A DNA stretch of 64,000 bases, taken from assembly GCF_012163145.1 (NCBI RefSeq), contig NZ_JAAVTX010000001.1:903803-967802 (forward strand), read 5' to 3'. Within the stretch, counting starts at the first letter, position 1. Each line of letters starts with the position of its first letter. This document shows positions 40,758 to 63,616 of this stretch, one piece after another. The position numbers were made by a program, and so were the translations under genes. This DNA is from Falsiroseomonas frigidaquae. Lineage in GTDB: Bacteria; Pseudomonadota; Alphaproteobacteria; Acetobacterales; Acetobacteraceae. The notes beneath the pieces were generated by a model. The model saw nothing but the letters and a program-made list of their open reading frames with translations. It had not been told where the DNA came from and did no database searches.

Positions 40758-41072
40758 CTACTCGACGACCGTAAGGTTCGCCGGGTTGAGCCGCGCTGTG
40801 CGCAGCGCGCCGCCGGGCGTCCTGTGGACGACCGTGGACTTCGGGATGTCCACCGCGACCACTTCGGCCGCCGGCAGCCGCAGCTGCAGATTGTTCAGCA
40901 GGATGGTCTCCGGCACGCCGCGCGGCGTCTTGCCGCCGGTGGCGCGGCACTCGACCTCGGCGCACTCGAATTCGCGCGCGGGTTGGGCCACGGCGGCTGC
41001 GGCCAGGGCGATGCCGAGGCCGGTATCGGGTGTGAGGCGGCGCGCCGCCCGCATAGATTTCAGGGACATCAT
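40758..41072 (-). CDS. Small exported protein, paralogue A of the TPRGV/LLNxLQ pair
   Basis: A 104-residue protein with a signal-like N-terminus: basic residues 5-12, then a short Ala-rich run. The core is TPRGV at 49-53 and LLNNLQ at 58-63, followed by PAAEVVAVDI and a VV-containing strand. The same core and spacing occur in the protein at 54457-54846, and both lie head-to-head with an AraC-type regulator. I recognise no named family. Two Met codons at 41072 and 41069 compete as start. Beta-strand-rich C-terminus; export is inferred. Confidence 0.7.
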   Translation of the reverse strand: MMSLKSMRAARRLTPDTGLGIALAAAAVAQPAREFECAEVECRATGGKTPRGVPETILLNNLQLRLPAAEVVAVDIPKSTVVHRTPGGALRTARLNPANLTVVE

Positions 41073-41260
41073 CTGTACTCCCACGGGCCCGGGCAGGGCC
41101 CTGCGGCCTGCGTCGCAACCGGTACCAAGGCGCGTGGCGCAAGGGATGGGCGCGGCGTCCCCGCGCTGAACCTCGCGTTCCTTGGCGCGCGAGGAAGCTG
41201 GAACGCCCGGCGGCTTCGCGATAAGGCAGGGGCAGGCGTTGGCGAGAGTGAACCGCAGAT
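41073..41260. promoter_or_regulatory. Divergent control region, small exported protein A / AraC regulator
   Basis: The 188-bp gap between divergent starts must hold both promoters. Two short strings recur in the corresponding gap at 54153-54456: GGCAGGCGTTG (41231-41241) and TGGCRCAAGG (41135-41144). They are candidate regulator sites only, since chance matches of 10-11 bp in GC-rich DNA are possible. Confidence 0.35.
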
Positions 41261-42283
41261 ATGCCCGACCCTGGCGCGACCGATCTGCGAGATCCGGTCC
41301 GGGGCGACGGTCCCGGCGCCGAAGGGGCGGGGCGATTCTCGGTGGATACGCGCGACCTGCCGCCGGCAATCCGCCTGGATGCATGGCGCGCCTTCTGGCA
41401 ACCAGCGGTGCATGTGACGGCGAGGTGCGACGGTGCCGAGGGCTTCATCGGCCAGGCCACGCTGCGCCGGCTCGGCCGACACGTCCTGCTGGACATGCAG
41501 GCGGCACCCGCCAACTATCGCAGGCCGCGCAGCCAGGGCCTGCGGGATGGGCTGGACCATTGGGTGGTGGCGTTGCACATCGGCGAGACGGAGCGCCCGA
41601 CCGCGGCGATCTGGCTCGGCTCGCTTTCGCAGGGAATCGGGCTGCGCGATCTCGGCGGCCGATGGCTCGCCGTGTTCATCCAGCCGCAGTGCCTGCCGCA
41701 GCTCGCCTCAGTCTTCGCGGCGCCGCGCGCGGTGCCGGTGCTGAGCCCGGCGGCACGCATGCTGGCCGGGATGCTGCCGCGCATCACTGCCTCCGCGGAC
41801 CAGTTCGCGGCCCGGGAGGCACCGCGCCTGGAAGCCGCGCTGTCCTCCATGCTCGCGGCATGCCTGCTCGATGATGAGATGCAGCCGACCTCCGGCCGCC
41901 TGCAGCTCGAGGCCGCAAGGCGGGCGCGGGTGATCGCGCTCGTGGACGCCGCGCTGGGCGATCCGGAGTTGTCGCCGGCAAAGCTGGTGCGGCAAACCGG
42001 CCTCTCCCGCTCCGAGCTGTATCGCTGCTTTGCGCCGACCGGCGGCGTCTCTCGCGTCATCCAGTTGCGCCGGCTGCGCCGGGCCTATGCCGAACTGGCG
42101 CGCGCAGATGGGCCGAGTTCGATCAGCCTGATCAAGGACGCGGTCGGGTTCTTCGACGCCTCCAGCTTCACCCGCGCCTTCCGCCGCGAATTCGGCTGCA
42201 CCCCGCGTGAGGTGCTGGCCCGCCGCCCGCCGCCCGCAGCGCATCCCTGTCCCGGCCTGGCCGCAGCGCTCAGCCCTCGTTGA
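41261..42283 (+). CDS. AraC family regulator 1
   Basis: A 340-residue regulator. The C-terminal AraC-type double HTH has LSRSELYRCFAPTGGV and ..IKDAVGFFDASSFTRAFRREFG. The N-terminal sensor part begins with LPPAIRLDAWR and resembles AraC-binding-like domains. It shares this layout with the regulators at 48462, 53112 and 57436, indicating a local paralogous set. Divergent from small exported protein A. Its last 14 bp overlap the 3' end of the convergent RND gene. Confidence 0.88.
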   Translation: MPDPGATDLRDPVRGDGPGAEGAGRFSVDTRDLPPAIRLDAWRAFWQPAVHVTARCDGAEGFIGQATLRRLGRHVLLDMQAAPANYRRPRSQGLRDGLDHWVVALHIGETERPTAAIWLGSLSQGIGLRDLGGRWLAVFIQPQCLPQLASVFAAPRAVPVLSPAARMLAGMLPRITASADQFAAREAPRLEAALSSMLAACLLDDEMQPTSGRLQLEAARRARVIALVDAALGDPELSPAKLVRQTGLSRSELYRCFAPTGGVSRVIQLRRLRRAYAELARADGPSSISLIKDAVGFFDASSFTRAFRREFGCTPREVLARRPPPAAHPCPGLAAALSPR

Positions 42284-45200
42284 CGGCCAGGACAGGGCTC
42301 GGTTCCGGCGCTGCGCCACGCCGCTCCAGCACCGTCACATACAGCGCCGGCAGCACGATCAGCGTCAGCAGGGTGGCCACCAGCAGCCCCCCCATGATGG
42401 CGAAGGCCATCGGCCCCCAGAACACCGTCGGCGCGATCGGGATCAGGCCCAGCACGGTGGAAAGCGCCGTCAGCATCATCGGCCGCAGGCGCGACGTGGC
42501 GGCCGCCAGCACCGCATCCCGCAGGGCCATGCCATCGGCCCGGTCCTGGTCGATCTGCACGATCAGGATGACGCCGTTCTTGGCGATCATGCCGAGCAGG
42601 GCAAGGATGCCGAGGATGGCGACGAAGCCGAGCGGCCGGTTGAACACCAGCAGCGCCAGCACCACGCCGATCAGGCCGAGCGGCAGGATCGCGACCACCA
42701 GGGCAAGCCGCGCGAAGCTCTGCAACTGGAACATCAGCACGGTCAGCATCACGACGATCATGACCGGCACCACGGCGATGACGGAATCGCGGCTCTTGGC
42801 GCTTTCCTCCGCAATGCCGCCGATCTCGATCCGGGTGCCGGCGGGCAGCCTCGCGTTGATCGCGGCGATGCGCGGCGTCACCTCCGCCACCACCGTCTCG
42901 GGCAGCACGCCGGGGCGCACATCGGCCTGCACGGTCAGGGCGGCAACACGGTCGCGACGCCAGATCAGCGGATATTCCTGGCCGTGCTCGAAGGTGGCGA
43001 ACTGGCCGAGGGCGACGGTGCGGCCGCCGGGAATCGGCACCTGCATGGTCTCCAGCGTATCCAGCGAGAGCCGCTCCGCGGCGGTGGCACGCGCCCGCAC
43101 GCTGACCAGGTAGATGTCGTCGCGGATCTGGGTGATGACCGTGCCGGTGATGGCTGCGTTCAAGGTGCCGGCGATCGCGGTGGAGGACAGGCCGAGCTGG
43201 CGCGCCTGTTCCTGATCCACGACGACGCGCAGCTGGCGGGCCGGCTCGATCCAGTCGAAGCTCACATTGCGCGTCCCGGCGCTGGCGGCCACTTCCTGCG
43301 CCACCTCCAGCGCCACGGCGCGGATGGTCTCGATGTCAGGGCCGACGACGCGGTATTGCACCGGCCAGCCGACCGGGGGCCCGAGCTCGAGTGGCGATAC
43401 GCGGGCGATGGCTGTCGGGAACTGCTCGGCCAGCAGGGCTTCCAGCCGGCGTTGCAGCGCTTCGCGCACCTCCGGGTCCTTCGCCACCACGACGGCCTGG
43501 GCGAAGAAGGGGTTCGGCAGCTGCGCATTCAACGGCAGGTAGAAGCGGATCGCGCCGCGGCCGACATAGCTGCTCCAATGCGCCACGTCCGGGTCCTTCG
43601 CCAGCGCCGCATCCAGCCGCTCCACCGCTGTCAGGCTGGCATGGATCGAGGCGTTCTGGGGCAGTGTCAGGTCCACCAGCAGCTCCGGCCTGTCGGAGGA
43701 AGGGAAGAACTGCTGCGGCACGAAGCGCAGGGCATAGAGCGAGACGAGGAAGGCCGCGATGGCGACGGCGATGGTCACCCAGCGCAGCCGGATCGCCATG
43801 GTCAGGAAGGCCGCATAGCCGCGCAGCAAGGCGCCAGGCGGCGCTGCCGCCACGCCGGCCGCCTGCTTCGGCGCCTTCAGGATGGCCATGCCGAGCAGCG
43901 GCGCGAACAGTACCGCGACAAGCCAGGAGACGACCAGCGCCAGGCCGACCACGGCGAAGATGGAAAAGGTGTACTCGCCCGCCGAACTGGCGGCGAAGCC
44001 GATCGGGATGAATCCGGCGATCGTCACCAGCGTGCCGGTCAGCATCGGTGCCGCCAGTGTCTTGTAGGCGAAGGTGGCCGCCTGCGCCTTGCCGTCGCCG
44101 AGCGAAAGCCGCCGGATCATGGCGTCGATGGTGGTCATCGCGTCATCGACCAGCAGGGTCAGCGCGATGATCAGCGCGCCGAGCGAGATGCGCTGCAGGT
44201 CGATGCCGGCCAGCAGCATCAGCGGGAAGACGATGGCAAGGGTCAGCGGGATGGAAAGCGCCACCACCGCGCCAGCGCGCACGCCCAGGGCGACGAAGCT
44301 GACGGCCATGATGATCAGGATGGCTTGCCACAGGCTTTCCGTGAATTCGCCGATCGCGGTGTCCACCGTCTGGGCCTGATCCGCCACCAGGTAGGGCTCG
44401 ATGCCGATGGGCAGGTCGGCCTGGATTGCCTGCATCTCGCGCCGCAGGTTTTCGCCCAACGCCAGGATGTCGCCCCCGGCGCCCATTGCGATGGCGAGGC
44501 CTATGGCGGGCCGTCCGTTCACCCGGAACATCGGTTGCGGCGGATCGGCATAGGCGCGGCGGTCTCCGCGATATCGGTCAGCCGCACCAGGCGGTCGCCG
44601 GCGACGAAGGAAATCTTGGCAAGGTCCGCCTCGTCCTGGAAGGCACCGGAGACGCGCACCGAAAGCCTCTCGTCGCCGGTCTGCACCAGGCCGGCCGGCT
44701 GCACCGCATTCTGTGCCTGCAGCGCGGCGATCAGCGACGGGTAGTTCAGCCCAAGCCCGGCGAGCCGCTCCAGCGAGAATTCGACGAACACGACCTCATC
44801 CTGCGCGCCAAGGATCTCGACCTTGGTGACGTCCGGCACGCGCAGCAGGCGCGAGCGGATGGCCTCGACGTAGTCGCGCAACTCGCGTTGGCTGAAGCCG
44901 TCCGCGGTGAAGCCGAAGATGATGCCGAAGGTGTCGCCGAAATCATCGTCGAAGCCGGGGCCGACCACGCCCTGCGGCAGGGTATGGCGCATGTCGCCGA
45001 TGCGCTTGCGCACCTCGTACCACATGTCCGGCACCACCTCCGGCGGGGTGGAGCCTTTCAGTTCCACGAAGATCGTGGTCTGCCCCGCGACGGTGTAGCT
45101 GCGCAGCCGGTCGAGGTTGGGAGTCTCCTGCAGGGTCCGCTCCAGCCGCTCCGTCACCTGGGCCAGCGTCTCCTCGATGGTGGCGCCGGGCCAGGCGGCC

Positions 45201-45352
45201 TGCACCACCATGGCGCGGAAGGTGAAGGCCGGGTCCTCGTTCCGGCCGAGGCGGAAGAACACGATGCTGCCGGCGATGACGGCGACCAGCATGAAGTAGG
45301 CGAGAAGCTGCGGCCGCCGGATCGACCACTCGGACAGGTTCGGCCCGATCAT
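42270..45352 (-). pseudogene. RND efflux permease, split by a single-base frameshift
   Basis: Together the two frames span a normal RND permease (about 1,027 residues once repaired). Frame one (45352 down to 44519) encodes MIGPNLSEWSIRRPQLLAYF, the first periplasmic loop and LTDIAE. Frame two (from 44531) continues at MFRVNGRPAIGLAIAMGAGG with TM helices, VDDAMTTIDAMIRR (proton-relay region of TM4) and the final helices. Near 44562 a missing base converts the expected E-I-R-R-A-Y-A-D-P reading into another frame that stops after 16 codons. Overlaps the adaptor gene by ATGA. Could be a real pseudogene, a sequencing error, or a recoding site. Confidence 0.8.
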
Positions 45353-46437
45353 GGTTGGGCGTCCAGCAGCCGAACCTGCTGCCCAGGGCGCAGGACCTGC
45401 ACGCCGGCGGTCACGACGACATCGCCGGCTGCCAATCCCGAGCCGATGATGGCGCGCGCCGGGTCATGCCGCAGGATCTCCACGGGGCGCAGCGCGACGG
45501 TCCGGCTTGCCGTGTCCACCACCCATACGGCAGCGGCACTGCCCTGGCGGGTCAGGGCGCTGGCCGGGATGGCGTAGCCCGCTCCGCCCTGCAGTTCCAT
45601 CCGGCCGGTGACGGTGGAACCAAGCCGCAGCCCGGCGGGCGGATCCTCCAGCCCGATGCGCACGCGGAAGGTGCCGGTCACCGGGTCGGCGCTGGGCGAG
45701 ACTTCCCGCACGCGACCGGTCGCGCGGGTGACGGGGTCGAGCGTCAGCGCCACGGCGACGATCACCCCCGGCGGCGCGCGGTCCATGACCGCGGGCGGCA
45801 CGTCGAACACCGCGTCCAGGCCATCCTGCCGGGCAAGGCGCACGATCATGCGGCCGGGCGCCACCACCTCGCCCGCCTCCGCGCCGCGGGCGGTGACGGT
45901 GCCGGGCGCATCGGCCAGCAACTCGGAATAGCTCAACCGGTTCTCGGCGATGTTCACCTGCGCCTGCGCCGAATCCACCGCACTGCGCGCGGTCTGCCGC
46001 TGCTGCGCCGCCTGGTCGTAGCGTTGCCTGGTGCCGAAGCCGCTGCGCAGCAATTCGCGCGCACGATCGTAGTTCGCCTCCGTCTCCACCAGCTGCGCCT
46101 GCGCGGCCACCAGGGCGGCGCGCGCGGCGCGCAGCCCGTTCTCCTCGTTGGTGCGGTCGAGGCGGGCAACCACCTGCCCCGCCGTCACGCGGTCGCCAAC
46201 ATTCACCAGCCGCTCGATCATGCGTCCATCGATGCGAAATCCGAGATTGACCTCGGTCTGCGCCTGGATGGTGCCGGTCAGGCTAACGGTGGTGCTGTCG
46301 CCGCGCGATTCGACCGTGACGACGCGGACCGGCCGCGGATCCGGCGCGGCGGGCGGCGGCGCCTCGCCGCAGGCGGCCAGTGCCGCGAAGGCGAGCAACA
46401 GGCAGGGCCGCTTCGCGTCGCCCGAGACACTCGACAT
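45349..46437 (-). CDS. RND efflux periplasmic adaptor (membrane fusion) lipoprotein
   Basis: A 362-residue HlyD/AcrA-type adaptor. It has a lipoprotein signal ending LAACGE (Cys anchor), a beta-barrel/lipoyl start TVSLTGTIQAQTEVNLGFRIDGRM, the coiled-coil hairpin (ETEANYDRARELLRSGFG ... RQTARSAVDSAQAQV), the second lipoyl half LADAPGTVTARGAEAGEVV and a barrel domain. Start at 46437 puts the lipobox at the right distance; the frame opens further upstream. Coupled to the frameshifted permease; no TolC-like outer-membrane gene is adjacent. Confidence 0.9.
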   Translation of the reverse strand: MSSVSGDAKRPCLLLAFAALAACGEAPPPAAPDPRPVRVVTVESRGDSTTVSLTGTIQAQTEVNLGFRIDGRMIERLVNVGDRVTAGQVVARLDRTNEENGLRAARAALVAAQAQLVETEANYDRARELLRSGFGTRQRYDQAAQQRQTARSAVDSAQAQVNIAENRLSYSELLADAPGTVTARGAEAGEVVAPGRMIVRLARQDGLDAVFDVPPAVMDRAPPGVIVAVALTLDPVTRATGRVREVSPSADPVTGTFRVRIGLEDPPAGLRLGSTVTGRMELQGGAGYAIPASALTRQGSAAAVWVVDTASRTVALRPVEILRHDPARAIIGSGLAAGDVVVTAGVQVLRPGQQVRLLDAQP

Positions 46438-46563
46438 GCTCGAAATCCCTGCACTGATGGGCAGGGGAAAGCTAACGATCCGTCCGCCTTCCTTGATCAG
46501 CGGCACGTCCCGGCCATGCGCACTACGTCCCGAAGCCACGCCCGCGCGACTGCACGCGATGCC

Positions 46564-47608: not shown

Positions 47609-48199
47609 TCACCGCGGCCCAGCCGGGACAACCCGCACAGAGGCCTGCGCGAGCCGACGCAGCAGGCGCAGGCGGCGCAGGATCGGGCGGCGGTCATGCA
47701 GCAGCATCTCGACCGGCTTCCACATCGCCACCCAGCCGAGGATGCCGATGCTTTCGCGTGCGATGCGGGTCAGGGGCCGTTCGGGGAAGTCGGCGACCAG
47801 CACCCAGGCGGTCGTCAGGCAGGCGGCGAGGATCGCCAAGCCGATGGCAAGGCTGCGCCGCGCATCGGAAAGGTGCTCCTTCGCCGAGCGCTCCTGCGCC
47901 TCCGCCAGCAGGCCGAAATGCGTTGCGAGCGCATCACCCAGCCGCGCCTTGTCGGCACTGCCCATGGCATCGGGCGGCAGGCGCACGGTGACATTGAGCG
48001 GCACCTCCGTGGGCTGGCGGCGCGCCCATTCGATGATCTCGCTTTCCGCAGCAGCGCGAAGGCAGCCGGGATGCAGCGGCCAGGCGGCATCCACGGCGAC
48101 CAGTTGCCCGATATCCATCAGATCCAGGTCGAGATTCGAACCGGCGAGAGATGCGGCCGGCCTGGCGGTCGATGACGCGGTCATAACGGCATCGGACAT
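47609..48199 (-). CDS. Unrecognised protein with central transmembrane segment
   Basis: A 196-residue protein. The N-terminal half is hydrophilic (LNVTVRLPPDAMGSADKARLG) and contains a Trp/Arg region; residues about 125-150 form one or two hydrophobic helices (LAIGLAILAACLTTAWVLVAD); the C-terminus is very basic (RRPILRRLRLLRRLAQ). It could sit in the inner membrane with a cytosolic basic tail. No family recognised. Start 48199 (ATG) is preferred to the GTG at 48223. First gene of the minus-strand run that continues into patatin and possibly the RND genes. Confidence 0.7.
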   Translation of the reverse strand: MSDAVMTASSTARPAASLAGSNLDLDLMDIGQLVAVDAAWPLHPGCLRAAAESEIIEWARRQPTEVPLNVTVRLPPDAMGSADKARLGDALATHFGLLAEAQERSAKEHLSDARRSLAIGLAILAACLTTAWVLVADFPERPLTRIARESIGILGWVAMWKPVEMLLHDRRPILRRLRLLRRLAQASVRVVPAGPR

Positions 48200-48461
48200 G
48201 AGGCCCCCGGCTCCAAGGTGCACCGACCTTAGGCTGCCCCCCCATGATGTTCATTATCCGGCCGTCCCGCCGCTTGCCCGCACGTCTCCGGAAGAACGCA
48301 AGTGCAAATACCCGGCCCGCATCGGGCAAAAAATTCAGCCCGAATAATTTATCGCGAAGACCGAACCGCCTCGATAAACAATATATTCGCGACGATGTTT
48401 CTTGTTGCGGAAGCGGGCATGCCCCAGTTAATGGACATGCGAATGCTCATTGGTGGCGCCA
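48200..48461. promoter_or_regulatory. AT-rich divergent control region
   Basis: Between the divergent genes lies a stretch with much lower GC than the rest of the window (notably 48310-48400, extending into about 48530), with runs such as AAAAAATT, ATAATTTAT and ACAATATATT. An inverted pair TCGCGAA (48352-48358) / TTCGCGA (48386-48392) and, inside the start of the next gene, a perfect dyad TCAACTT-A-AAGTTGA (48500-48514) are present. This looks like a promoter/operator zone. Confidence 0.5.
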
Positions 48462-49445
48462 ATGTTTACAAGAATTGCCGGCCAGCAGCAGTATATTTTT
48501 CAACTTAAAGTTGATCCTCCAGTATCGGGAAATGCGAGGTCTCGCCTGCTGAAGCCGCCGCGCCAGCCCGCGCGGAACCCGCCGGCGCGCCTTCAGTTCG
48601 ACGCCTGGCGTGACATGAACCTGGGGCTGGTCGATCATGCCGCGCCCCGGACCCTTCCCGATCGCTACGAGGTGAGCGCCGTCACCTTTCGCTTTGGCGG
48701 GCTGGCGCTGCCTGCGGCGGAGACACCGGCCGAAACCTGCCAGCGCCCGGCAGGCAACCTGCGGCGCGACGGCAAGTGGTCCGGTCAGCTCGTGCGGCAC
48801 ACGCTGGGGCATCCTTGCGACGCGGCACCCGCCCCTTCTGGCTCGCCGCATTTGCATCCGCCGCGCGAGGAGCTGCCCTCCACCCTCGTCTCCGAAGTAA
48901 CGGGCTGCCAGGTTCTGGATACGCCGAGCGGACTTCTCCTACGGGACTACCTTCTGCTGCTGGCGGACCAGCTTCCCCGCATGACGATCGCGGATGGACA
49001 GCGTTTGGCGGAAGCCACCAGGGCGATGATCGCCCTTGCGGCAGCAGAATGCCCGGCGCGGCAGGAGGCGGCGGCGGCGCCCCTCGGGGCTGTGCAGCTG
49101 GCGCAGGTGCACAGCTTCATTCGCGCCAATCTCGGCTCGGCCAGGCTCGGGCCGATGCGGATCTGCCAAGTGGCCGGCATCGCGCGCTCGCAACTCTACC
49201 GGCTGTTCGAACCCTATGGTGATGTGGCGCTGTTCATCCAGCGGGAGCGTCTGAACGCGGCCTACCGGGCGCTGACCGACCCGAACGATACGCGCAGCAT
49301 CGGCGAGATCGCAGAGGCGAGCGGGCTGTTCGATGCTTCGAGCTTCAGCCGCATGTTCCGCCGTGCCTTCGGCATTCCGCCGCGCGAGCTACGCATGGCA
49401 CAGAGGATGCGCACGCTCAGCGCCCGCGAGACCCAGGCCATCTAG
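48462..49445 (+). CDS. AraC family regulator 2
   Basis: A 327-residue AraC-type protein related to the three other regulators in this region. The HTH part has IARSQLYRLFEPYGDVALFI and IAEASGLFDASSFSRMFRRAFG. The N-terminal part shares LQFDAWRD and the REELPSTLVSEVTGC...LDTPSGLLLRDYL segment with its paralogues but appears to lack roughly 40 residues of the sensor domain before it. Start is unclear: ATG 48462 (or TTG 48450) is the only clear upstream codon, and the first 30 residues are unusually AT-encoded. Divergent from 47609-48199. Confidence 0.82.
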   Translation: MFTRIAGQQQYIFQLKVDPPVSGNARSRLLKPPRQPARNPPARLQFDAWRDMNLGLVDHAAPRTLPDRYEVSAVTFRFGGLALPAAETPAETCQRPAGNLRRDGKWSGQLVRHTLGHPCDAAPAPSGSPHLHPPREELPSTLVSEVTGCQVLDTPSGLLLRDYLLLLADQLPRMTIADGQRLAEATRAMIALAAAECPARQEAAAAPLGAVQLAQVHSFIRANLGSARLGPMRICQVAGIARSQLYRLFEPYGDVALFIQRERLNAAYRALTDPNDTRSIGEIAEASGLFDASSFSRMFRRAFGIPPRELRMAQRMRTLSARETQAI

Positions 49446-49673: not shown

Positions 49674-50210
49674 CTAGCGGATCAGCGGCGCGTCGATGGC
49701 GTGGATCACGCCGTTGGAGCACGGGATGTCGGCGCGCGTGACGCGTGCCATCCTCTCGCCCCTCACCACCACCGACAGCACGCCATTCTCCCGGCTGAGC
49801 CGCAGCGGCGTGCCAGCCTCCGTCATCAGCTCGCCGGCCTGGCCAAGCGCGGCGCTGTCATGGCGCCCCTGCACCACATGCGCCTGAAACGCGGCCGGTG
49901 CGAGAACCGGATCGGACTCGCGAATCCCGTCCACCATGGGAAACAGCCGATCGATGAGAACGCTGCGTGCCCCACCCGCCAGCGCATCATTGGTCGGCGC
50001 GAAGATGGTGATGGCTTGGGCATTGCGGACATCGGCGACGGCATGAGCGCGGATCACACCGCTGATGAAGCGGGAGAACTCGTTCATTCCTGCGAGGACG
50101 TCGACACAGTTGCGCTGCTGCGCCGAGGCGCCCGGTGCGCTGACGGCGCCCATGGCGACGGCGATCGCAGAAAATGCGGCGAGGCGCAGTCTTGAGGATC
50201 GGAAGGTCAT
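49674..50210 (-). CDS. Fasciclin (FAS1) domain-containing exported protein
   Basis: A 178-residue protein with a signal peptide ending ASAQ. The single FAS1 domain shows the H1-type motif TIFAPTNDALAGG and the conserved H2-region ending NGVIHAIDAPLI. FAS1 proteins mediate adhesion or interaction with other envelope or matrix components. Domain order is normal though slightly short. Start 50210 fits the signal peptide; upstream frame is shadow. Divergent from a MipA/OmpV gene with a 307-bp gap. Confidence 0.88.
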   Translation of the reverse strand: MTFRSSRLRLAAFSAIAVAMGAVSAPGASAQQRNCVDVLAGMNEFSRFISGVIRAHAVADVRNAQAITIFAPTNDALAGGARSVLIDRLFPMVDGIRESDPVLAPAAFQAHVVQGRHDSAALGQAGELMTEAGTPLRLSRENGVLSVVVRGERMARVTRADIPCSNGVIHAIDAPLIR

Positions 50211-50517
50211 GGCATTCTCTCCTTGTGACGGGCCGAAGCCCCGCAGCGGGTTGGCGAGGGCCTCGGCCCCGATCGCCAATCACGAACCTACGGCGGCGCT
50301 CCGGCGCGTGGCATGGGCGTGGGTCTCAGGCCTATGCCAACCGTCCCATCATCGGCCGACGCGCCCCCTGGCCAGGCCGAGCCGCGCGCGACGGCCTGCC
50401 TTCACGCGTCGGAGCCTGCGCCGTGTTGGAACATCCGGTGCATCGGACGGATGCGACGCCCATCACCCGCCTGGCGCGGATCACTAGTCTTCCCGGCACC
50501 CGCCTGAGGAGATTTCG
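50211..50517. other. Divergent intergenic region, fasciclin / MipA
   Basis: A 307-bp gap between divergent genes. Peptides from overlapping frames are low complexity and not protein-like. I see no tandem repeat or long dyad. It must contain both promoters; GAGGAGA at its right end is the ribosome binding site of the mipA-like gene. Confidence 0.5.
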
Positions 50518-51423
50518 ATGGGACAGAGTTGTGCACCCCCCGCAGCTCGGTTTGCCGATGCGCGGCCATCATCCTTCTCGCCAGGGAGGGATCGGCGGAA
50601 CGGGACAAGGCCTCCCGCCGCAAGGATTGCTCTGCTGGTCGCAGCCGTGCTGGCCTTCGAATCCCCTGCCAGGGCGCAGACCGATCTCACGCCGCAGGCG
50701 ATGCCGCCACCTTCGACAGCCGGCGGCGAATGGCGCGTCTCGGTCGGCGCGGGCGCCCTGCTTTCGCCTGACTATCTGGGTTCCGACAGCCACACCCTTT
50801 CGCCGCTCCTCAGCCCTGATATCCGCTGGCGGCAGGACACGCTGTTCCTGTCCCTGCGCGATGGCCTGGGTGCCACGCTCCTGCGCCACGGTCCTGTCTC
50901 CATGGGCGTCGTGCTGCGGCCCCGCTTCGGGCGCGACCAGGACGACAACGACGCCTTGCGCGGCATGGGCGACATCCGCCCTGCCGGCGAGGGCGGCCTT
51001 TTCATGCGCTATGCCAACCCGAACTGGCGCGGCGCGCTGGAGCTGCGCCAGGGCTTCGGCGGCCATTCGGGTCTCGTCGCCGATGCCCGGCTCGACCGGG
51101 TGCTGCGCCTGCGACCGGATCTCATCCTGACCGCCGGCCCGCGGTTGAGTTGGGGCAGCGAGGATTTTGCCGAAACCTATTTCGGCGTCGATGTGGAGCA
51201 ATCCAGGCGCAGCGGCTATCAGCGCTTCGCGCCACAGGATTACTGGTTCGCAGGCGTTGCCGCGAGCCTGACTCTGCAGCTCGATACCCGCTGGAGCCTG
51301 ACGGCGTTCGGGGAGGCCGGACAGATCCTGGGTGACGCCGCCGACAGCCCGCTCGTCGATGGCCGCGGCAGCGCAACCCAGGCGCTGTTCGGCTTGACCC
51401 TCAACTGGCAGTTCCTGCCGTAA
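50518..51423 (+). CDS. MipA/OmpV family outer-membrane protein
   Basis: A 301-residue predicted outer-membrane beta-barrel. A long basic N-terminus is followed by a hydrophobic signal ending in PARAQ; the barrel begins WRVSVGAGALLSPDYLGSDSHTLSPLLSP and ends with GLTLNWQFLP (C-terminal aromatic, as in barrels). GLGATLLRHGPVSMGVVLRPRFGRDQ is the family's internal pattern. MipA scaffolds peptidoglycan synthesis in E. coli; many OmpV homologues have other roles. Strong RBS GAGGAGA before ATG 50518. Convergent with the SBP at 51439. Confidence 0.9.
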   Translation: MGQSCAPPAARFADARPSSFSPGRDRRNGTRPPAARIALLVAAVLAFESPARAQTDLTPQAMPPPSTAGGEWRVSVGAGALLSPDYLGSDSHTLSPLLSPDIRWRQDTLFLSLRDGLGATLLRHGPVSMGVVLRPRFGRDQDDNDALRGMGDIRPAGEGGLFMRYANPNWRGALELRQGFGGHSGLVADARLDRVLRLRPDLILTAGPRLSWGSEDFAETYFGVDVEQSRRSGYQRFAPQDYWFAGVAASLTLQLDTRWSLTAFGEAGQILGDAADSPLVDGRGSATQALFGLTLNWQFLP

Positions 51424-54456: not shown

Positions 54457-54846
54457 ATGACGACGAACCTGCGACGCGCATTGCAACGCCCGATGCTCGC
54501 GGCTGCCGCGCTTGCATCCGTGGTGGCGATGCCATTGCCGTCCCTGGCGCAGACCTCGATGGGCTCGCGCGAATTCCAGCAGGCCGAGCTCAGCGAATTG
54601 TCCCCCGCCCTCCGCAGCGAGGTGGAGCGGCGTGTCGCCCAGGCGCCAGGCAACACGCCACGCGGCGTGCTGGAGTCGATGCTGCTCAACGAACTCCAGA
54701 TCCGCGAACCCGCCAGCCGGATCGTCGGGCTCGACCTGGGTCGCGGCGTGGTCGTGATCCAGCAGCCGGCCGGCGCGATGAAGGCCTACACCTTCAACAA
54801 GCAGGAGGGTCTGCGGGTCATGGGCGAGGTTTCGCTGGCCCGTTGA
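54457..54846 (+). CDS. Small exported protein, paralogue B of the TPRGV/LLNxLQ pair
   Basis: A 129-residue protein with a clear signal peptide (cleavage after LAQ at residues 30-32). The mature part has a helical start (ELSELSPALRSEVERRV) and the shared core TPRGV at 67-71, LLNELQ at 76-81, then EPASRIVGLDLGRGVVVIQQPAGA. The core matches the protein at 40758-41072 in sequence and spacing. RBS GAGGAGA precedes the ATG. No named family recognised. Divergent from AraC regulator 3. Confidence 0.85.
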   Translation: MTTNLRRALQRPMLAAAALASVVAMPLPSLAQTSMGSREFQQAELSELSPALRSEVERRVAQAPGNTPRGVLESMLLNELQIREPASRIVGLDLGRGVVVIQQPAGAMKAYTFNKQEGLRVMGEVSLAR

Positions 54847-57238: not shown

Positions 57239-57435
57239 TCCAGCCGCTGCGCCGAATCATGCCGGGCGTCCCGCGATTTGGCCCAGCATCCCCGCCGGTG
57301 CCGCCAAGTAATCTTCGTGGTTTCCCAGATAACCCGGAAGCGTAGGGTTCTGCCGCGACCAAAGCTTCCGTCACTATCCTTACAGCACGGGCAAACCTTG
57401 CCACATTCCAGTTATTGGGAGGAAGGATTTACATA
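57239..57435. other. Intergenic region upstream of AraC regulator 4
   Basis: A 197-bp gap, somewhat lower in GC toward its right half (57340-57435). It ends in GGGAGGAAGG, the ribosome binding site of the next gene. No repeat or gene is supported. Confidence 0.4.
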
Positions 57436-58632
57436 ATGCTTGCAGCACCTCTCGACACAGTTACAGATCGTGTTCTACCGTGGGAGATCGTGGACGCTGC
57501 GGATGCGCCCGCTGCTTCGGCCGTTGCCAGGCCGCCTGGGCGGCCTGGCTCTGGCGACAGCGATCAGGACATGGGCACGCCGGCCGGAACCGATGATGCA
57601 GGGGCCGTAGCCCGGCCCAGGCAACCGCTGACCTTCTCCACCCTGGACCTGCCCGCGCGGCAGCAATTCGACGCCTGGCAGGCTGCCAGCGCCGGCACCA
57701 TGGAGGTGATGCCCCTGGCCGATCCGGCCGCCGGCTTCCCCGCCGAGCGGGCGCTTTGGGCGCTTGGTCCCCTGGCGCTCATGACGATGCGGGCTCCGGC
57801 CGCGCGGCTTGTGCGGACGGCCGCCGCGGCTCGCCGAACTTCGCTGGACCATTGGATGATCAACGTCGCGCTGCGCGGCGAGCGGCGGATCTGCAACGAC
57901 GTGGCGAGCTCGACCATCCCTGCCGGCGTGGCAAGCATCGGCTCGATGAACGATGTCATGGATTCGGATCGAACGGACATCGACTGGCTCTGCCTGTTTC
58001 TGCCACGCGATCTTGCGCCCGAGATCGCCACGGCGCTGAGCGCCTCCCGCGGCAGTCCGCTCGATACCTCCATGGGTCGCATCCTCGCGTCCTTCCTCGT
58101 CCAACTCGCAGCCGAGGTGCCGTCGCTTGGCGAGGCAGAGCAGGCGCGGGTCGTCGAATCCGCCCGCGCCATTGTCGCGGCATCCATCGCACCGTCGGCC
58201 GAGGCAATGGCCGCCGCGCATGCGCAGATCGACCTCGTGCAACTCTCGCGCGTCAAGGTCATCATCCGGCAGCATCTGCGTTCCGCCATCCTCACCGCGG
58301 AACGCCTCAGCCGCTTGGCGGGCGTCTCACGCTCGCAGCTCTATCGACTGTTCGAGCACCAGGGCGGTGTCGCGCATTACATCCAGTCGGAGCGGCTGCG
58401 GGCGGCATGTCGTGCGCTCGCGGCACCAGGGGGTGAGCGTGACATCTCGGCGATCGCAGAGGATGTCGGCTTCTTCGATCCCTCGGCCTTCAGCCGGTCG
58501 TTCCGGCGGGAGTTCGGGGTGGCGCCGCGCGAGTTCCGGGCCGCGGCCCTGGCGGGGCAGGCGGTTGTGCTGCGGCGGGACCCCATGAAGCCGGCCACCA
58601 CCGACCTCGCGGATTTTCTTGCCCGACTGTAG
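57436..58632 (+). CDS. AraC family regulator 4
   Basis: A 398-residue AraC-type protein, the longest of the four related regulators. The DNA-binding part has VSRSQLYRLFEHQGGVAHYI and IAEDVGFFDPSAFSRSFRREFG. The sensor part has LPARQQFDAWQ, LDHWMINVALRGERRI and WLCLFLPRDLAPEIATAL. About 60 residues of Pro/Gly-rich linker precede it. ATG 57436 follows GGAGGAAGG; a TTG at 57415 is possible. Convergent with the porin gene at 58645. Confidence 0.9.
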   Translation: MLAAPLDTVTDRVLPWEIVDAADAPAASAVARPPGRPGSGDSDQDMGTPAGTDDAGAVARPRQPLTFSTLDLPARQQFDAWQAASAGTMEVMPLADPAAGFPAERALWALGPLALMTMRAPAARLVRTAAAARRTSLDHWMINVALRGERRICNDVASSTIPAGVASIGSMNDVMDSDRTDIDWLCLFLPRDLAPEIATALSASRGSPLDTSMGRILASFLVQLAAEVPSLGEAEQARVVESARAIVAASIAPSAEAMAAAHAQIDLVQLSRVKVIIRQHLRSAILTAERLSRLAGVSRSQLYRLFEHQGGVAHYIQSERLRAACRALAAPGGERDISAIAEDVGFFDPSAFSRSFRREFGVAPREFRAAALAGQAVVLRRDPMKPATTDLADFLARL

Positions 58633-61833: not shown

Positions 61834-63114
61834 TCATCGCGCCGCGGCCAGGCCCGCAGGCCCGGCGACCGAGGTGGTGGCGAGCGGTGGCGCCGTGGCC
61901 CAGGCCGCTCCGCTCAGGCCCGCGGCACGGCCGTACTCGAATAGCGCCTTCATGAATTCGGGATCGAAGGGCCCGCTGCGCGGCGCCCTGAAGTCCGTGC
62001 CGATATACGCCACACGGAAGCCCAGCCCATCGCGCAGCGCGGTCAGGTAGATCCGGTTGATGTCGTTGATGCCGCTGAAGTGCAGCAGCGTGGAGGCCGA
62101 TCGGCCGGTGATGCTCATCACCCCGCGAGCGACGGTAGCGCCCTCCAGGTCGATGCGACCATTACGCACAACATGAATCACGCGTCTGCGCTGACCCGAT
62201 CCGGCCCGGTCCATGTCGCGCAGTTGCATGGATGGCGGGTAGAAGAAGACCTGTACCGACGCGCCACCATCAACATGCATCTCCTGAAACGTACGGCCTT
62301 CATGGTCGATGTTGACCAGCACGGGGGGGAAGGCGCCAGGGATGGAGGCTGACGCCAGCAGGATGCGGCGAAACAGATCCAGCGCCCCTGGATGTCCGCT
62401 GGCCGCGATCGCGCCGATATTCCAAACCACCGGGCGTTGCAGGTCGAGATTCGTAGTGCCGATCAACAGCAGCCGCCCGCGCCGATATTCACGGGCAATC
62501 GCGCGCAGCATTGCCTCGTCGGCATGACGCTCGATCAGGCTGTAGAGCGGCGATGTATCGGCAACCGCTTCGCCGAATACGAGGGAGAAGGCGGTGGTAA
62601 GCCAGCCGCCGAGGCGCAGCACATCGGCCCGCCCGGCCGGGGTGAAGACCTCGCGGAGTGGTGCGTCGAAGGCGGGGCCGAGGAACGCGAAGGGCGCGAT
62701 CAATGCACCGGCCGAAATGCCGGTGACGACGGTGAATTCGGGCCGGTTGCCGGCCTGGGTCCAGCCATTCATCAGTCCTGCACCGAAAGCGCCGTTATCG
62801 CCGCCGCCGGACAATGCGAGGAAATGCACCTCCGATGGGCCGTCGCGCTGTGGCCCCTGCGCCGCCCTGCCCAGCTGCGCCATCAGCACGCCCTCGCGGC
62901 TCAGGGCATCGGGCGGACCATCCGGCCAGAAGCGAGCATTGGAAATACCGAGCACCGGCAGGTCCGTCGCCAGGCTGGATGGTGGCGGATCGAGCCGCAC
63001 GATGCTCGCGCAGCCACTCAGGAGGCTGGCAGCCAGAAGCAACACGACGGCGAGCGCCATGCCGACCGTGCGGTCTGGTTGGCTGCGGTGATGGGCAATC
63101 GGTGAACCGGACAT
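61834..63114 (-). CDS. Patatin-like phospholipase lipoprotein
   Basis: A 426-residue patatin-family protein with a lipoprotein signal (ALAVVLLLAASLLSGC; an internal ATG at 63060 begins it directly). Catalytic motifs: oxyanion GGGDNGAFGAG, nucleophile GISAG, and the dyad Asp in MHVDGGASV. Its lipid anchor places it at the periplasmic face, unlike the cytosolic-looking patatin at 46564-47586. Such enzymes remodel membrane or lipoprotein acyl chains. Next to the alpha/beta hydrolase on the same strand (47-bp gap). Confidence 0.88.
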   Translation of the reverse strand: MSGSPIAHHRSQPDRTVGMALAVVLLLAASLLSGCASIVRLDPPPSSLATDLPVLGISNARFWPDGPPDALSREGVLMAQLGRAAQGPQRDGPSEVHFLALSGGGDNGAFGAGLMNGWTQAGNRPEFTVVTGISAGALIAPFAFLGPAFDAPLREVFTPAGRADVLRLGGWLTTAFSLVFGEAVADTSPLYSLIERHADEAMLRAIAREYRRGRLLLIGTTNLDLQRPVVWNIGAIAASGHPGALDLFRRILLASASIPGAFPPVLVNIDHEGRTFQEMHVDGGASVQVFFYPPSMQLRDMDRAGSGQRRRVIHVVRNGRIDLEGATVARGVMSITGRSASTLLHFSGINDINRIYLTALRDGLGFRVAYIGTDFRAPRSGPFDPEFMKALFEYGRAAGLSGAAWATAPPLATTSVAGPAGLAAAR

Positions 63115-63616
63115 CAGGCAGGCGCGATCGCGTGGAAATGGACGCAGCGCGGCTTTGTCAGAATCGTGGACGCGTTGGAGCAGATCACGTTCGTTCCTTC
63201 AAAGCTGATGTCGACCGGTTTCCCTTGAGAACGTGGCGCCAACCAGCGGCGTGGCGCATCTGCGCAGCGCATTTCATGAGCTACTGGCCGTGATTTAACG
63301 GAGAGACCACTCCTGTTGCGCCTCTGACGCTCTTACGTCCGAGACTTTAGCAATGACGTTTGCCTGCACAATTGGCATCAGGTGCCAGCATTGTGGCGCA
63401 CATCCCAGTTGCCGCGAAGGCGCCGTCCGCTCGGCAGGTCTCGTGGAGCCGCTCATGTCCGGCCATCATGCGCCGATGCAAGGTGACCCTGCTTCGGGTG
63501 ATGGCTCAGCATTGAGCGCGATAGCGGCCCTGTTGGTGCTCCCGGCGGTGCGGGGGCGACCCTCTCAGTCGGCGGCCTGCGGTTGGGCGATTTCCGGGCA
63601 CTATCCGAACGCGAAA
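63115..63616. other. Intergenic region between patatin gene and rRNA terminator
   Basis: This stretch of about 500 bp lies between a divergently oriented promoter side and the rRNA operon end. Short open frames exist (e.g. 63353-63670), but their peptides are not protein-like and overlap the rRNA terminator. I see no tRNA, IS end or repeat. It probably contains the patatin promoter. Confidence 0.45.

Follow-up and report, generated by a model that had tools for sequence, protein, structure and literature searches.

The window analysed here, a 64,000-nucleotide stretch of the Falsiroseomonas frigidaquae genome, carries two genes for small exported proteins, P1 and P2, each divergent from a gene for an AraC-type regulator (Table 1). 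Our preferred reading, to which we assign a probability of roughly one half, is that these are AraC-activated periplasmic stress proteins, most likely for acid, encoded in a region resembling the acid fitness island of Escherichia coli. The small protein has a DNA control signal and gene neighbours in common with acid-protection systems, which suggests a stress protein that AraC-type regulators encoded nearby probably switch on. The grounds are homology, N-termini of export type, an element conserved across genera and the gene neighbourhood.

Table 1. Features of the window, in order of position.
Feature	Position	Strand	Details
DUF1269 protein directly downstream of P1	40170..40676	-	PF06897, 119.7 bits; recurrent, 13/29 loci
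Small exported protein P1 (P0001, 104 aa)	40758..41072	-	Family member; 11-residue internal deletion
40-bp tandem element, P1-AraC1 intergenic, pointing to P1	41144..41183	-	Two half-sites, 20-bp period
AraC-type regulator 1 (AraC1, P0003), divergent from P1	41261..42283	+	HTH_18, 53.0 bits (cut-off 33.6)
RND efflux permease (two frames) and membrane-fusion protein	42270..46539	-	Each in 9/29 loci
AraC-type regulator 2 (AraC2)	48450..49445	+	HTH_18 match
Fourth, weaker element copy, upstream of fasciclin-domain gene 49674-50279	50311..50348	-	Three mismatches to the pattern
Third element copy, upstream of MipA-family gene 50518-51423	50426..50465	+	Score 33.1; outside the matrix-building set
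AraC-type regulator 3 (AraC3, P0004), AraC_binding_2, divergent from P2	53112..54152	-	HTH_18, 49.2 bits (cut-off 33.6)
40-bp tandem element, AraC3-P2 intergenic, pointing to P2	54296..54335	+	Two half-sites, 20-bp period
Small exported protein P2 (P0002, 129 aa)	54457..54846	+	Full-length family member
Asparaginase-family enzyme downstream of P2	55144..56115	+	PF00710, 104.1 bits; recurrent, 9/29 loci
AraC-type regulator 4 (AraC4)	57415..58632	+	HTH_18 match

P1 and P2 belong to a family of small exported proteins

The four open reading frames of the two divergent pairs lie where the initial annotation had placed them, and the head-to-head layout holds in both. A core that it had seen in both small proteins reflects homology, a two-sequence comparison aligning them at 40% identity over 78 residues (E 2e-15); P2 also retrieved P1 from the whole 6.08-Mb genome at E 1.2e-9. 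An in-frame deletion of 33 nt has cost P1 11 internal residues; it recurs in the G003 orthologue and is absent from that in G002.

The two pairs had been proposed to be a duplicated unit. Paralogy of P1 and P2 stands, but a simple, recent duplication does not: P2 clusters with the copies of G015, G066, G150, G272 and G142 (support 0.987), and P1 lies outside this group, joining it at support 0.857 on a long branch. We therefore regard P1 and P2, from the protein tree, as old paralogues. AraC1 likewise forms a very long branch. The deletion in P1 is real, but we do not claim that P1 is decaying, because dN/dS between G000 and G003 (0.62 for P1, 0.90 for P2 on seven changes, 0.48 for AraC1) fails to set it apart from P2.

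A family profile built from seven sequences (threshold E ≤ 0.001) matched 32 of 398 Acetobacteraceae genomes, of which 26 hold clear members; the other six were left aside for partial profile cover at E 4e-6 to 1e-3. A sample of 385 genomes from the class added no further clear member, its two matches being the genome itself and G602 (E 1e-7 over model positions 7-71 only, not counted), and the single match among 299 genomes of the phylum was again the genome itself. Weak members may escape these two samples, as 11 (class) or 15 (phylum) candidates were scored for most genomes with many. A tblastn search of 72,556 plasmid records placed the family on two plasmids of Polymorphobacter (Sphingomonadales), where the protein is 52% identical to the copy at locus L117, and on one plasmid of Roseomonas gilardii.

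Family proteins are of about 110 residues with export-type N-termini. In an alignment of 31 members, both window copies included, the N-terminus of nearly every protein runs from a short basic segment through a hydrophobic one to a cleavage-like site, A-Q or A-x-A, with A31 and Q32 conserved in at least 90%. About 80 residues follow the putative cleavage site, among them the invariant R59, L77 and D93 (P2 numbering). Neither P1 nor P2 has a convincing Pfam or NCBIfam family at E ≤ 1, the one Pfam match, to 'Sensor', reaching 12.8 bits against a cut-off of 28.2, and the L117 protein has no NCBIfam match at E ≤ 1e-10. The best Pfam matches of the 31 members, one to CysG_dimeriser (E 0.0011) and three to DUF4148 (best 0.0065), were judged to be chance. 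So were the sequence matches to solved structures, namely Ika8 (E 2.7e-6) and Ika4 (4.8e-4), which cover 27 residues with no stretch passing alone, and NR1C (0.091).

The AlphaFold2 model of P2 has predicted helices at residues 38-46, 50-62 and 68-83 and strands at 88-93, 98-102, 108-114 and 120-125, with block-mean pLDDT of 78-92 over residues 41-129, an overall mean of 76.2 and a pTM of 0.59. A fold search with this model returned nothing at E ≤ 0.001 in PDB or BFVD, and so indicates no chaperone fold. In the open-access literature searched, we recognised no paper on the small-protein family or the 40-bp element, and found none that joins Roseomonas, acid stress and AraC.

A 40-bp tandem element mainly marks the small gene

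The element was found by aligning by eye the divergent intergenic regions of P1, P2, G015, G272 and G142, to which G109 was added through the matrix, and is thus common to both units of the window and four other divergent loci. At width 40, the six regions score 129, against a mean of 115.6 for shuffled sequences (standard deviation 1.7, maximum 121), and none of 60 shuffles reaches this score; at widths 20 and 30 the scores are weakly above the shuffles, of which 3-5 and 1-2 in 60, respectively, reach the motif score. Its two halves repeat directly: across 15 sites, the self-correlation of the column profile is 0.61 at an offset of 20 and no more than 0.13 at any other offset between 14 and 25.

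Tandem half-sites are a known promoter arrangement for AraC-family regulators, as in AraC I1-I2 and promoters of the XylS type. Like them, the element repeats directly at about two helical turns and lies ahead of a target gene that is transcribed away from the regulator gene; it is accordingly a putative AraC-type site, whose half-site sequence and 20-bp period were derived in this analysis. It is also close in size to the GadX/GadW binding sites of E. coli, given as 42 bp in the title of Tramonti 2008 (as cited in PMC3708157).

On 491,440 control positions the matrix reached a maximum of 11.8 and exceeded 8 at two. In held-out scoring, for which a gene's own genus did not contribute to the matrix, 19 of 31 family genes, in 11 of 15 genera, had a site scoring over 8 in the 300 bp upstream (17 of 29 once the near-identical G003 copies are dropped), against two, three and five of 808 control segments for the three held-out matrices. 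All 19 sites face the small gene, and 17 begin 92-161 bp upstream of it. The 12 family genes that do not exceed 8 include that of the gadBC locus (L117), and the Polymorphobacter stretches reach 7.6 at most.

The scan of upstream genes and the tally of unit-leading genes used a matrix that includes the training sites. Among candidate leaders of all loci, G003 dropped, it can be seen that 16 of 25 small genes score above 8, compared with 7 of 159 unassigned genes, one of 10 glutaminase, one of 14 membrane-fusion, one of four MFS and one of three CitMHS genes, the single HdeD-like gene, and none of the 18 AraC, 10 DUF1269, nine patatin, three asparaginase and two AbgT genes. Two of the seven unassigned genes are of mipA type and three encode M20 peptidases (by cluster or Pfam). 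We conclude that the element mainly marks the small gene.

The third and fourth copies in the window form a back-to-back pair (50311-50465) in the space that separates the fasciclin-domain gene from the divergent MipA-family gene, and each gene has one copy facing it. A weaker match (15.9) lies at 63369-63408 on the minus strand, upstream of a patatin-like gene (61837-63060), and none is listed upstream of AraC2 or AraC4. Expressed as a pattern, the element has five matches in the whole genome, four of them within 13.2 kb of the window, at 41145 (before P1), 50311 (fasciclin gene), 50427 (mipA) and 54297 (P2). The pattern gave 71 matches in the 26 family genomes (eight for the reversed-pattern control) and nine in 15 genomes without the family (control two); since it was derived from sites in family genomes, part of this excess is built in. 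Twenty of these 80 matches were examined singly, and nine precede an island-type gene while 11 do not. The nine are before five membrane-fusion genes (L159, L164, L170, L180 and L183) and one gene each for an asparaginase, a patatin, a DUF1269 protein and a glutaminase; the L159 and L164 sites fall inside a predicted ORF, and those of L170 and L180 are sites already in the matrix scan.

AraC-type regulators recur beside the family

The regulators AraC1 and AraC3 are related, as the initial annotation had it, with 35% identity over 271 aa. PF14525 (AraC_binding_2) matches AraC3 at 31.0 bits (cut-off 27) and has no match to AraC1 at E ≤ 1, though the two proteins align over this length. Four related AraC genes lie within a 17-kb region of the window, among 13 HTH_18 matches in the genome. 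Another one of the 13 lies about 2.7 kb from the genome's single glutaminase match, on contig C14.

Neighbours were counted within 6 kb of 29 family genes, a set that excludes the window itself and includes its orthologous loci in G003 and G002, and in 20 control regions of the same genomes. AraC genes of the same kind are present at 14 of the loci, in 8 of 15 genera, and in none of the controls. They are head-to-head with the small gene at eight loci (L051-L055, L096, L097 and L112; 4 of 15 genera) and otherwise arranged at six (L100, L102, L106, L107, L108 and L110). The association suggested by the two units thus extends to other genomes, but not to every locus, as the fetched stretch is without AraC at 15 of the 29, some of them shortened by contig ends. 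Given this recurrence and the tandem element between the genes in six divergent loci, the exported protein, earlier put forward as either target or cofactor of the regulator, is likely to be a target, and we treat it as a candidate target of the AraC regulator.

Gene neighbours common to acid-protection systems

DUF1269 genes accompany 13 of the 29 family genes; asparaginase, RND and membrane-fusion genes nine each; glutaminase eight; EmrB-like MFS, CitMHS and MrpA (a count that may take in related antiporter subunits) seven each; AbgT six; AI-2E-type and patatin genes five each; HdeD-like genes two; and GadB-GadC one. One control region (L155) holds a DUF1269 gene, which is no random event since the region was chosen from a contig known to carry one, and the other 19 are without a marker. 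On the R. gilardii plasmid pRo-1 the annotated genes are a helix-turn-helix (AraC) regulator, SLC13, the small gene, glsA, MFS and RND.

The RND permease of the window is split into overlapping frames at 42273-44531 and 44522-45352 on the minus strand, by a real break or a sequencing error; in the G003 and G002 loci it is one frame of 1027 aa. A 204-aa ORF (47609-48223, minus strand) divergent from AraC2 has relatives in both G002 and G003, and Pfam gives it no match at E ≤ 0.01. At five loci without the small gene (L129, L130, L133, L134 and L135), glutaminase adjoins an EmrB-like MFS gene near AraC, RND or Mrp genes, asparaginase coming next in four and DUF1269 in two. Loci of the L129 type are a modular Acetobacteraceae island.

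The E. coli acid fitness island is described as comprising hdeAB-yhiD, hdeD, gadE, mdtEF, gadW and gadAX (PMC4222967). Family loci resemble this island and the GAD cluster in their small periplasmic protein, RND pump with adaptor, AraC-type regulators and glutamate/glutamine enzymes, and at two loci in an HdeD-like membrane protein; that of L108 scores 64.4 bits for Pfam DUF308 (cut-off 25) and 50.4 for NCBIfam HdeD, under its cut-off of 189. They differ from it in that HdeA is found in none of the 26 family genomes (and in 5 of 398 Acetobacteraceae genomes, the draws for the family and HdeA searches being taken as the same set from their equal size and shared handles), that glutamate decarboxylase is over its cut-off in 2 of the 26, and that the loci add DUF1269, asparaginase, MFS, Mrp and patatin genes. 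Another parallel is the Brucella gadBC-glsA-hdeA operon, in which gadB, gadC and glsA are described together with the gene for a small periplasmic protein (PMC5695133). L117, in the order small protein, DUF1269, GadB, GadC and glutaminase A, has this enzyme set with a family protein in place of HdeA, scoring 619 bits for GadB (cut-off 380.4), 782 for GadC (650) and 494.6 for glutaminase A (395). Unlike the Brucella operon, it adds DUF1269 and its small protein has no HdeA match, and it is one such locus in 29.

Family members are like HdeA/HdeB (PF06411) in size, export-type N-terminus and genomic company, and on both Polymorphobacter plasmids the next gene downstream of the small gene is annotated as an HdeA/HdeB chaperone, the one tested matching PF06411 at 60 bits (cut-off 22). 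Membership of that family was nonetheless rejected, as PF06411 matches none of the 31 members at E ≤ 1. HdeA is all-helical, and HdeA and HdeB have a conserved cysteine pair; the P2 model has three helices and then four strands, and P2 has no cysteine, while the two of P1 are both absent from its G002 orthologue. By analogy, then, the small protein may fill the place of the periplasmic arm in an acid fitness island, yet it is no HdeA/HdeB member.

Proposed mechanism and alternatives

We propose that the small proteins are exported to the periplasm as stress proteins, and that an AraC-family regulator would bind the tandem direct-repeat element, which begins some 90-160 bp before their start codons, and activate them. 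Some other genes would be activated along with them: mipA and the fasciclin gene in the window, and elsewhere a gene for an RND adaptor, a DUF1269 protein, a glutaminase, an asparaginase or a patatin. The island would thereby combine cytoplasmic enzymes that release ammonia or consume protons, membrane pumps and a dedicated small periplasmic protein, which most likely would shield periplasmic or envelope proteins in acid or a related envelope stress.

Acid would be the simplest signal to assume, since GadB-GadC, glutaminase, HdeD and HdeA are all described as parts of acid resistance in E. coli or Brucella (PMC4222967, PMC9769608, PMC5695133). Against this, GadB-GadC adjoins the periplasmic gene at one of 29 loci and glutaminase at eight, neither does so in the window, where there is no glutaminase or GAD match, and glutamate decarboxylase passes its cut-off in just 2 of the 26 family genomes; the gene sets behind the acid reading are therefore partial. 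In Brucella microti, deletion of hdeA is reported to have left glutamate- and glutamine-dependent survival at pH 2.5 unchanged (PMC5695133), and a place in such an operon therefore proves no role. For these reasons, and because the element is lacking at the gadBC locus, we put our confidence near one half.

The best-surviving alternative, which we consider possible though clearly less probable, is that the island answers some other envelope signal, such as fatty or aromatic acids, solvents or detergents. A regulator distantly like FeaR would then respond to some small organic compound, the small protein would maintain the envelope, and the acid genes would be neighbours only through a gathering of stress genes. 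The best curated regulator model is FeaR (74 and 77.6 bits, far under the cut-off of 199), and genes for RND efflux, EmrB-like MFS, patatin phospholipases, MipA, fasciclin, a DcaP-like protein and CitMHS are among the neighbours or carry the element. Elements also occur in two genomes that lack the small protein, before an adaptor gene in G009 (inside a predicted ORF) and, as a pattern match with one mismatch, before a patatin gene in G005 (L163). Such a signal, however, leaves unexplained the glutaminase, asparaginase, HdeD-like, GadB-GadC and Mrp genes of the same loci, and an HdeA neighbour in another order.

An improbable alternative is a locus for scavenging amides, dipeptides or folate fragments (asparaginase, glutaminase, AbgT, M20 peptidase, peptide-binding protein), with the small protein as a periplasmic uptake accessory. 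It would suit the AbgT, M20 peptidase and CitMHS genes downstream of P1 on its strand, the asparaginase downstream of P2 and the three M20 peptidase genes that bear an element, but AbgT and CitMHS recur less often than DUF1269, the presence of RND, Mrp and HdeD-like genes is out of keeping with it, and the element is sparse at CitMHS promoters (one of three) and absent above 8 from those of AbgT (none of two) and asparaginase (none of three). Least probable of all is the cofactor idea, a closed sense-and-respond pair in which the exported protein feeds back to AraC, for which the head-to-head layout at eight loci might speak: AraC proteins act in the cytoplasm, whereas the small protein has an export-type N-terminus, and of the 15 loci whose fetched stretch has no AraC, five (L098, L104, L105, L111 and L115) still carry the element. 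The two genes can therefore occur apart, and the small gene has the look of a target.

Our preferred reading thus remains a periplasmic stress protein under AraC activation, with acid as the likeliest stress. In a bolder form, which we hold tentatively and think rather unlikely as a whole, the family would be a new class of protectors against acid stress in the periplasm, unrelated in structure to HdeA and standing in for it in Acetobacteraceae, controlled by AraC through a new 40-bp tandem site that would mark out a scattered regulon for acid and envelope stress. If the preferred reading is right, Acetobacteraceae protect their periplasm from acid without relying on HdeA, by another protein, and acid islands under AraC control are built from different parts in different lineages. 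For an exported family without a Pfam or NCBIfam model, the analysis offers a hypothesis of function, a cis element and candidate regulators, and the element makes the regulon directly testable.
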